Source: an uncultured Roseovarius sp.
GTDB taxonomy: Bacteria > Pseudomonadota > Alphaproteobacteria > Rhodobacterales > Rhodobacteraceae
Direction: 5' to 3'
Assembly: GCA_951812895.1 (NCBI GenBank)
Contig: OX638333.1
Span: 2,212,001-2,276,000, forward strand
Length of the DNA stretch: 64,000 nt
Positions 29,124 through 31,377 of the stretch are shown here, one piece after another. A program made the translations under genes and the position numbers. The notes under the pieces were generated by a model. That model did no database searches. It saw nothing but the letters and a program-made list of their open reading frames with translations, and was not told the DNA's origin. The first letter of the stretch is position 1. Every line of letters starts with the position of its first letter.

Positions 29124-30065
29124 TCAGCTTTCGCGCTGCATTTCAGCCAGCTGCTTGGCTCGGTGATCTGCCAGAACTCCGGTGCCATCTTTCCAGCGAC
29201 GGTGAATCCAGAACCATTGATCCATACGAGCACGCACCTGGGTCTCTAACCGGTCATTGATTTCCTGCGTCATCGTCACCGGATCAGAATGTGTAACAGG
29301 GGTTTCGACATGGACACTGAAATCGAGGCCGTTATCCGCCCGAATTCCCCACGTCGGCACAAGTAATGCGTTGAATTTCAGGGCCATTTCGGCAGTCGCT
29401 AAAGATGATAATGCGGGTTTGCCAAAAAAGGGCAACGGCACACCGTCATGCGCGTTGAGATCGGTAAGGATTGCCAGGACGCCGCCAGATTTCAGATGTT
29501 TGACCATCTGGATCATGCCTTTGCGGCCCTGTTCGAACAAAGGTTCGCTGATTTGTTTCATCGCAGCGATGTATCGGGCATTGAAATATTGGTTTCGCAT
29601 GGGGCGATAAAATCCCCCCATTAGAAACCCCTGCTCGATCATCGCAACACGGGCGGCGTTGTAACTTCCGAAATGACCGGTGACAAAGATCACCGAGCGG
29701 CCCTGTTCCCTTGACTTGCGAAGTGTTTCCAGGCCAGGGCCACTGACTGGTGCACTGCGCGCGCGGCTCTTAAATTCATCCCCGGAATACATTTCGATCA
29801 TTGTTCGGCCGGCATTGTCTGGGACTGCGCGGACAAGGTGCCTGATCTCTTCTTCGGTCAAATCGGGCCGGACATAAGCCAGGTTTTCGCGAATACGCTT
29901 GCGGTATCCTGCCAACGGGGCTGCGATCCGCGACGTTACCCAACCAATAAGCGGAACACGCCAGCGATAAGGTAACAGCAACGCCAGCGAGATAGGAGCG
30001 CTCATAGCTATGCCCGTAACGGTGTCTGCCATACATGCCAGAATAGATTTTTTCTGCGGGCTCAT
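29124..30065 (-). CDS. Lauroyl/myristoyl acyltransferase-like protein (LpxL/HtrB family)
   Basis: The protein has the lysophospholipid acyltransferase H-x4-D/E equivalent in VTGHFGSYNAAR, the family block GGFYRPMRNQYFN and LTDLNAHDGVPLPFFGKPA, plus an N-terminal membrane segment. These are features of LpxL/HtrB enzymes that add secondary acyl chains to lipid A. I chose the ATG at 30065 (GGAATAAG upstream); the frame runs on to 30410 but that part overlaps the next gene and does not look coding. It lies 62 bp downstream of the nitrile-hydratase-family operon on the same strand and may be co-transcribed. Confidence 0.86.
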   Translation of the reverse strand: MSPQKKSILACMADTVTGIAMSAPISLALLLPYRWRVPLIGWVTSRIAAPLAGYRKRIRENLAYVRPDLTEEEIRHLVRAVPDNAGRTMIEMYSGDEFKSRARSAPVSGPGLETLRKSREQGRSVIFVTGHFGSYNAARVAMIEQGFLMGGFYRPMRNQYFNARYIAAMKQISEPLFEQGRKGMIQMVKHLKSGGVLAILTDLNAHDGVPLPFFGKPALSSLATAEMALKFNALLVPTWGIRADNGLDFSVHVETPVTHSDPVTMTQEINDRLETQVRARMDQWFWIHRRWKDGTGVLADHRAKQLAEMQRES

Positions 30066-30127: not shown

Positions 30128-30778
30128 TCAGGGTGCCTGCACAAGACCCGTACCGATCATTGAATCGCGGGTGACAAGCTCTGCCAGAGCCGTCTGTGAC
30201 ATGCCCTCGGTGCCATTGGGGCGCAAAGGCAGAACAATATAACGCATGTCGGCGGTGCTGTCGTGCACTCTGACCGTCACAGAGTCTGGGAGCTCCACGC
30301 CGAATTCCCGCAGCACCGCACGTGGCTCGCTCACGGTTCGAGAGCGATATTCCCGGCTTTTGTACCAATCCGGAGGCAAGCCCAATAAGTTTCGCGGGTA
30401 ACAGGAACACAGAGTGCAGACGATCACGTTATGCACCTTTGCAGTGTTTTCAACGGCGATAAGTTTCAGCGGCCCGATATCAAAACCCATCTCGCGACTG
30501 GCTGCGCTGGCATCCTGGAGCAATCGTGCCCTGAACTCTGGATCAGCCCACGCACGGGCGACGACCACGGCACCATTAGCCGGAGAGCGCGAATCCATGG
30601 TGTTGATTTGTTGTGCGACCTCTGCGGCGGTTACATGCCCGCCTTCGATCAAAAGCTCGCGCACGGCAATTTCCATACGCTGCCAATACGTCAGCGGCTC
30701 GTCATTGTCGGCACGGTAGGGATGGCCCGAGGAGCTTATCCCATGGTGATGAAAATGATCTGGGTGATCGTGCGGCAT
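30128..30778 (-). CDS. Nitrile hydratase alpha / thiocyanate hydrolase gamma-type subunit (Co-type motif)
   Basis: The metal motif V-C121-T-L-C124-S-C126-Y-P is the cobalt-type claw of the nitrile hydratase superfamily, whose second and third cysteines are normally oxidised. The residues after it, RNLLGLPPDWYKS and YRSRTVSEPRAVLREFG, and the late VTRD-S-MIGTG fit the family. After CYP the protein has Arg where nitrile hydratases have Trp, as I recall for thiocyanate hydrolase gamma. The N-terminus is histidine-rich (HDHPDHFHHH), which may help metal capture and is also seen in that protein. It is the third gene of a tight three-gene unit with the split beta subunit. The substrate is undetermined. 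Confidence 0.85.
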   Translation of the reverse strand: MPHDHPDHFHHHGISSSGHPYRADNDEPLTYWQRMEIAVRELLIEGGHVTAAEVAQQINTMDSRSPANGAVVVARAWADPEFRARLLQDASAASREMGFDIGPLKLIAVENTAKVHNVIVCTLCSCYPRNLLGLPPDWYKSREYRSRTVSEPRAVLREFGVELPDSVTVRVHDSTADMRYIVLPLRPNGTEGMSQTALAELVTRDSMIGTGLVQAP

Positions 30779-30782
30779 TCTC

Positions 30783-31046
30783 TTAAACCTTTTCCAGCCA
30801 ATGCCCGAAAATCTCGGCATCGAGTGTATCGGTTGGGCACTCAGCCGCGTCCCCCCAGATTTCCTGCATCGTGAAGCGCACCCGGTAGAGTGGCCTTTGA
30901 TCGGCTGCCAATCCATAGGCCAGTTGTTCAGGATTGCTAAACTGGCCCAATTCGCGCTCAATTTCCCCCACCTTTCCGCGCAGAAACGCAGGGGTGCGAA
31001 TATGGCCCGGTGGCATCATAAATTTCACCCGCACCCGTTCAGCCAT
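30783..31046 (-). CDS. Nitrile hydratase beta C-terminal (SH3-like) half as a separate subunit (thiocyanate hydrolase alpha-like)
   Basis: This 87-residue protein matches only the C-terminal SH3-like barrel of nitrile hydratase beta: MAERVRVK, then PPGHIRTPAFLRGKVGEIER, NPEQLAYG, LYRVRFTMQEIWG and a final IFGHWLEKV. It starts at ATG 31046 inside the end of the preceding gene (8-bp overlap, different frame) and stops 4 bp before the alpha gene, so the three are translationally coupled. A separate C-terminal-half subunit is the arrangement of thiocyanate hydrolase and toyocamycin nitrile hydratase rather than ordinary nitrile hydratase. Confidence 0.82.
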   Translation of the reverse strand: MAERVRVKFMMPPGHIRTPAFLRGKVGEIERELGQFSNPEQLAYGLAADQRPLYRVRFTMQEIWGDAAECPTDTLDAEIFGHWLEKV

Positions 31047-31377
31047 TCTGGGCCTCACCATATGTTTTGCCGCGTTTGGCAATCTCTTCCATCCGGTTGC
31101 CCAGTTCTTCGAGCGTGTAGACGCCGCCCTCAATCAGGTTCTGGTTAATCGCGGCAATCCAGCGTTCATAATAGCTGTGCTTTTCGAACGTATCCTCGCC
31201 CATGTCTTCCAGCGCACGCCGTAGGCCATCCACCGTGAACAGACCTTTTTCACCACACAGAACCATCAGAGCATCAACACGCTTTTCCCAGATAGCGAAA
31301 TCATGCTCTTCCCGCTGGATGGGGCCTGCGCCCTGCCCACCCATGTCGTGCCACCGGCGTCCGTCAACATCACTCAT
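31039..31377 (-). CDS. Nitrile hydratase beta N-terminal half as a separate subunit (thiocyanate hydrolase beta-like)
   Basis: The 112-residue protein corresponds to the helical N-terminal part of nitrile hydratase beta: a DMGGQGAGPI opening, WEKRVDALMVLCGEKGLFTVD, and YYERWIAAINQNLIEGGVYTLEELGNRM. Small proteins of this type are also annotated as nitrile hydratase accessory/activator proteins, which is the main alternative. Here it is the first gene of the unit and supplies the only copy of the beta N-terminal half, which favours a structural subunit. Two intact frames with their own starts argue against a simple frameshifted gene. Confidence 0.8.
   Translation of the reverse strand: MSDVDGRRWHDMGGQGAGPIQREEHDFAIWEKRVDALMVLCGEKGLFTVDGLRRALEDMGEDTFEKHSYYERWIAAINQNLIEGGVYTLEELGNRMEEIAKRGKTYGEAQNG

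Follow-up and report, generated by a model that had tools for sequence, protein, structure and literature searches.

The window analysed here, a stretch of 64,000 nucleotides from an uncultured Roseovarius sp., shows on its minus strand three consecutive genes of the nitrile hydratase (NHase) family. The first gene, betaN (31039..31377), encodes the N-terminal half of an NHase beta subunit as a free protein of 112 amino acid residues, which matches PF21006 (NHase_beta_N) with an E-value of 3.4e-21. The second, betaC (30783..31046, with its ATG at 31046), encodes the free C-terminal SH3-like half of beta, with 87 residues and a match to PF02211 (NHase_beta_C, E 3.9e-20), and the third, alpha (30128..30778), encodes the metal-binding subunit, with 216 residues and a match to PF02979 (NHase_alpha, E 5.1e-79). 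All three exceed the curated Pfam cut-offs. The frames of betaN and betaC differ and their ends overlap by 8 bp (ATGGCTGA) in an ATG...TGA arrangement, while betaC and alpha are separated by 4 bp. Residues 121-126 of alpha form the claw CTLCSC, followed by YPR. Frames, Pfam matches and claw bear out an earlier note on this DNA, made from the letters alone, which had described a split-beta three-gene operon with a Co-type CTLCSC alpha subunit, two overlapping beta pieces in different frames and the gene order betaN-betaC-alpha known from thiocyanate hydrolase (SCNase).

The best PDB match of alpha is the nitrile hydratase 3hht_A (E 2.2e-62). According to the alignment, betaN keeps Arg53, Glu57 and Tyr69 (beta-Arg52, beta-Glu56 and beta-Tyr68), and betaC keeps His15 and Arg23, for which we take beta-His147 and beta-Arg157 to be the classical beta numbers. 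A replacement of the catalytic beta-Arg52 by Asp in betaN was considered and rejected, since the residue count in 3qxe_B aligns Arg52 with the conserved betaN Arg53. These positions were compared in 104 loci of the clade that contains the window (window clade). These loci were chosen by similarity, the window being one of them, and some are near-duplicates (a species may recur across the two collections); betaN and betaC were detected by a one-round profile. Arg53 and Glu57 are found in 102/102 rows with a betaN, Arg23 and His15 in 104/104 rows, and the three claw cysteines are all present in 103/104. In Jannaschia pagri (L096), an otherwise intact alpha shows the claw RTLCSC, with the first Cys changed to Arg, which may reflect an error in the sequence or an enzyme that has lost its activity. 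Next to the invariant Asp173, alpha shows His172, which is His in 104/104 window-clade rows and in six of seven other three-part rows. At this position Trp is found in 32 of 34 classical rows, Ser in operons with a permuted gene order, and Glu, Ala or Val in SCNases, a possible second-sphere difference.

The earlier note had considered that the 112-residue protein might prove to be only an activator. This is disfavored: betaN scores 68.7 bits with the nitrile_beta model against 19.2 bits with nitrile_acc, and it bears the equivalents of the beta active-site Arg, Glu and Tyr. Taken alone, betaN and betaC each score below the full-length nitrile_beta cut-off (152.2 bits), as expected because each is half a subunit. 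Single-sequence structure prediction of betaN alone gave a helical model of low confidence (mean pLDDT 54.7, pTM 0.39).

When 84,980 species were scanned, each through one genome, 514 relatives of alpha emerged, and the analysis retained the best 80. Among these best 80 of 514, the closest named alphas belong mostly to Roseovarius and related genera, and 78 show separate betaN and betaC frames upstream of alpha. None of the 80 has a fused beta, and in the remaining two betaN is missing where the contig ends. The two halves jointly resemble one beta subunit, as they would if the split were a frameshift artefact or the mark of a decaying pseudogene; however, with 78 of the best 80 relatives split and none fused, sequencing error is not the cause of the split. 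Differences from relatives at the first, second and third codon positions are 0.19/0.15/0.53 in betaN, 0.22/0.20/0.56 in betaC and 0.21/0.13/0.56 in alpha, a strong third-position bias such as would be seen under purifying selection. In two Rhodobacter MAGs, a whole cupin gene of about 168 codons lies between betaN and betaC (L036:5231-5731 and L039:5228-5731; Cupin_2 E 8.7e-18 for the latter), so betaN and betaC would be independent genes. No match to this cupin was found in the other collected loci or in the window, and the window genome has distant cupins only. The artefact or pseudogene reading is already excluded at sequence level and we give it practically no probability; the split of beta is real and old. 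A betaN match of at least 55% identity was present in 47 of 296 sampled family genomes, own genome included, a figure that counts betaN and not splits. In one same-genus genome (G035:C1:503695-504012) the betaN match crosses one TGA, where the model match perhaps overruns the gene end, and in another (G015:C48:51061-51353) a single place shows short alpha fragments only, resembling a decaying gene.

Downstream of alpha, the window shows a lipid A acyltransferase-family gene (29124..30065, minus strand; PF03279, E 5.7e-42) that is probably not part of the enzyme. ORFs of one similarity cluster, named by likeness from a single member, come immediately after the operon in 55 of the best 80 of 514 relatives. 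The recurring neighbours in the relatives encode a lipid A acyltransferase, a FliG-like protein, an adenylosuccinate lyase, a DUF1223 protein, an aconitase and a permease, of which the lipid A acyltransferase and the DUF1223 protein were named by Pfam, from their genes in the window, and the others by eye. They were considered as functional partners and set aside, as none points to a nitrile pathway. The surroundings of the operon, covered by eye for the ORFs at 27-35 kb and with Pfam for three neighbours, showed no recognisable gene for an amidase or a cobalt transporter. Such housekeeping-like surroundings, together with clade-wide changes such as the His172 of alpha in place of the classical Trp, would fit an NHase-family enzyme acting on something other than a simple nitrile, either another molecule bearing a C-N triple bond or a small metabolite. 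We consider this unlikely, given that the claw and the examined Arg, Glu, Tyr and His positions of beta agree with those of nitrile hydratases and that an enzyme of the same architecture, from Streptomyces canus, hydrates nitriles according to the part of its description available to us (PMC7329996).

A phylogenetic tree of the concatenated alpha, betaN and betaC sequences (84 rows, 399 columns, unrooted) and an alpha-only tree were generated, with 27 of the 104 window-clade rows taken in. In the concatenated tree the window clade has a support of 100/99, and the classical and alpha-first rows form a separate clade with 100/100. A branch with 98/96 support divides the window clade, the classical rows and one three-part row (L113) from the SCNases, six other three-part rows and two permuted rows. 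With 99/98 support, the SCNases group with the two permuted operons and with L162, a three-part operon of Streptomyces; their branch is very long (2.37), which may affect where they are placed. Holding the window clade together with the SCNases was weakly rejected by the AU test on the concatenated data (p 0.042). With alpha only, the test rejected neither a clade of window and SCNase rows (p 0.258) nor one uniting every three-part row except the SCNases (p 0.326). The window clade thus sits outside the classical NHases and, in the concatenated tree, apart from the SCNases. A firm grouping of alpha inside the classical NHases, which the earlier note had named as telling against its reading, was found in neither tree, though an intact NthB exists elsewhere in the genome. 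The second alpha of the window genome (L001) falls inside the classical clade, and the window alpha outside it. Because the trees have no root, the three-part form may be ancestral or derived. Five operons with the order alpha-betaN-betaC-activator (L120, L152, L153, L154 and L157) lie inside the classical clade, at several places, which may point to repeated splitting of beta.

Thiocyanate or an unknown nitrile had been proposed as the substrate in the earlier note, and the Arg after the claw and a His-rich N-terminus had been taken as features of SCNase. As a thiocyanate hydrolase, the three chains would hydrolyse SCN- to COS and ammonia. The window proteins match all three chains of PDB 2dd4, the thiocyanate hydrolase of Thiobacillus thioparus, in whose naming the counterpart of alpha is gamma. 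This enzyme shares with the window operon the split beta, the Arg after the claw and the equivalents of betaN Arg53 and betaC Arg23. None of the 398 genomes sampled first, across the phylum, passed TIGR03887. Nine of 369 genomes from another class gave alphas above its cut-off (382-397 bits), which we used as SCNase references. The gene order in the nine loci is as in the window (betaN is cut off in one). However, the window alpha scores 195.4 bits with TIGR03887, below the cut-off of 291.45, and narrowly passes TIGR01323, the nitrile hydratase alpha equivalog (256.3 bits; cut-off 249.85). An alpha insert found only in SCNases is absent from 104/104 window-clade rows.

The beta residues also differ. 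The equivalent of beta-Glu56 is Asn in SCNases (8/8 true betaN rows), whereas it is Glu in 102/102 window-clade rows and in 39/39 classical and alpha-first rows. The SCNase betaN counts refer to eight rows because the entry of L145 in the betaN columns is its downstream activator, its own betaN lying beyond the contig end. Similarly, the equivalent of beta-His147 is Tyr in 9/9 SCNases, whereas it is His in 104/104 window-clade and 39/39 classical and alpha-first rows. AnhD-Glu56 and AnhE-His21 of S. canus, named in a review, would be the equivalents of these two residues. Furthermore, an activator-like gene follows alpha in eight of nine SCNase loci, the ninth being cut near its end, whereas the window operon has none alongside; among the 104 window-clade loci, whose flanks differ in length, the search for such a gene gave a single weak second betaN-like match (L104, 20 bits).

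Neither of the two proposed SCNase features is diagnostic. Arg follows CTLCSCYP in each of the 122 loci examined that have the betaN-betaC-alpha or a permuted order (104 of the window clade, seven other, two permuted and nine SCNase), a Streptomyces three-part operon included, while the 39 classical or alpha-first loci show Trp (31), Phe (7) or His (1). This Arg is a tempting SCNase marker, yet it marks the betaN-betaC-alpha lineage and not the reaction. A crude measure, the number of His in a fixed N-terminal segment of 32 residues, averages 6.0 for the window clade, 5.0 for the 39 loci of classical or alpha-first type and 2.0 for the nine SCNases. A second way of cutting the N-terminus gave the same group order (6.1 in 96 rows, 4.7 in 21 and 2.0 in 9). 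Thiocyanate hydrolase was rejected on family score, residues, operon layout and the concatenated tree, although the alpha-only AU test leaves it open, and we judge it very improbable; between the two substrates first proposed, a nitrile is the probable one.

As the earlier note had stated for the surrounding DNA, no activator gene was found beside the window operon. Elsewhere in the window genome, at about G000:C1:1099000-1101000, lies a second NHase operon, of the classical alpha-beta-activator type, whose activator scores 53.5 bits with TIGR03889. Activation in trans is possible in the window strain because this second operon holds an activator, and the window enzyme may be a nitrile hydratase dependent on it. 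The distribution within the genus argues against such dependence, which we regard as quite improbable. The three-part operon is found in 29 of 36 same-genus genomes, own genome included (20 as loci and nine by neighbouring alpha and short-frame betaN matches alone); six of the 29 additionally have a classical beta and an activator, and 23 show no TIGR03889 match, so that the operon persists without a recognisable activator. The positive control was the set of eight same-genus genomes that carry a classical long-frame beta: TIGR03889 matched in every one, in one case just under the curated cut-off, and the model therefore works in this genus.

The apparent absence of activators rests on profile searches, so divergent activators can be missed. 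TIGR03889 gave no match in two of seven class-level genomes with NHase alpha genes, nor in the nine SCNase genomes, though eight of the nine SCNase loci show an activator-like gene. Because of this blank, a model was built from seven SCNase-type activators. This second model, with no positive control behind it, found no match in the 36 same-genus genomes, and in 60 relatives searched it gave one match (E 7.9e-4), inside a 362-aa frame of a class-level genome. Nine further genomes with betaN-betaC-alpha operons were examined, four of the window clade and five others. Six of them show no TIGR03889 match, and in the remaining three (G197, G075 and G658) the match lies near a second alpha.

The closest characterised system, of a rare three-part type, is AnhD-AnhE-AnhA (ScNHase) of S. 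canus CGMCC 13662. The available part of its description presents it as a three-chain cobalt enzyme that hydrates nitriles, reports that no activator gene was found in the S. canus genome, and describes AnhD as a subunit that is also a metal and subunit-swapping chaperone (PMC7329996). As far as that description goes, the two systems share the betaN-betaC-alpha order with both beta pieces as separate genes; S. canus lacks an activator gene and the window operon has no adjoining one, its own genome having one in the other operon. They differ in that ScNHase is actinobacterial, and its stand-in in our trees, Streptomyces L162, falls on the three-part side with SCNases and permuted operons, not nearest to the window clade. 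Since the window operon shares the anatomy of the S. canus system, the same way of working is the best-supported explanation. On the sequence evidence, betaN-betaC-alpha is likely to be a self-activating three-part Co nitrile-hydrating enzyme with no dedicated activator, and would be a recurring alphaproteobacterial member of the already known activator-free three-part nitrile hydratases. Cobalt, cysteine oxidation, assembly, nitrile-hydrating activity and chaperone role are all predictions.

In such an enzyme two of the claw cysteines would be oxidised, and two beta arginines, one from each half (betaN-Arg53 and betaC-Arg23), would hold the claw. By our alignment these would correspond to the Arg52/Arg150 pair that, in the part of the report available, stabilises the claw of an Ensifer enzyme (PMC12646544). 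Water would be added to the C-N triple bond of the substrate, giving an amide. Activator proteins are homologues of the free betaN, which would probably bind alpha first and help cobalt in; afterwards it would either remain in the finished complex of betaN, betaC and alpha or enter it by exchange, the course reported for AnhD. By analogy, betaN is probably both a subunit and a maturation chaperone, and the operon is a natural case in which to ask whether half of a beta subunit can take the place of an activator. In the open-access literature consulted we found no published assay of any enzyme from the Rhodobacteraceae clade of the window.

Compared with classical NHases (PDB 3hht and 3qxe; operons of alpha-beta-activator or beta-alpha-activator type), the window operon agrees in claw and catalytic residues, but the classical beta is fused, Trp or Phe (once His) follows the claw, and a dedicated activator is usually present. 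Toyocamycin nitrile hydratase also has three subunits, although alpha alone is reported there as sufficient for activity (PMC7329996, compared by the description in the part available). An NHase of the roseobacter Nautella R11, whose named subunits are alpha and beta, has been connected with the formation of indole-3-acetic acid from indole-3-acetonitrile, as far as the accessible part of the paper describes it (PMC3230580). In open-access work on roseobacters, Rhodobacteraceae and three-subunit NHases, consulted selectively, we found no description of the split form in Rhodobacteraceae. What seemed an oddity, a truncated beta and a possible SCNase, would become a recurring form of NHase in this family.

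The eukaryotic fusion NHases (Monosiga and others) have beta before alpha in one chain, with a His-rich stretch between in opisthokont members, according to the parts of the reports available (PMC2603476, PMC3323583); compared by this published description, they share the beta-before-alpha order with the window operon and differ in being one fused polypeptide. Marron et al., in the part available, drew their bacterial sequences from the top BLASTP matches to the Monosiga fusion, Roseobacter CCS2 among them, whose beta "appeared truncated" (PMC3323583). Roseobacter sp. CCS2 is L111 of our window clade and its beta is split, which probably explains the truncation. Going by these published descriptions, the eukaryotic fusion enzymes may derive from the window lineage; if so, their beta-alpha order has a simple origin. 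A wider reading, tentative and in our judgement rather unlikely as a whole, is that activator-free betaN-betaC-alpha enzymes form a separate major NHase lineage, with Arg after the claw and betaN as subunit and metal-insertion chaperone. SCNases would have arisen inside it and regained an activator, the eukaryotic beta-alpha fusions would be a fused roseobacter-type operon, His-rich stretch included, and the Rhodobacteraceae branch would act on an undescribed marine compound.

In Streptomyces L162 an aquaporin gene follows the three-part operon and HoxN lies two genes on; neither is found directly beside the window operon. The two permuted operons, with the order betaC-alpha-betaN, are located on Azospirillum and Agrobacterium plasmids (L164 and L165), and in L165 the operon is followed by aquaporin, DUF302, CbtB and CbtA genes.
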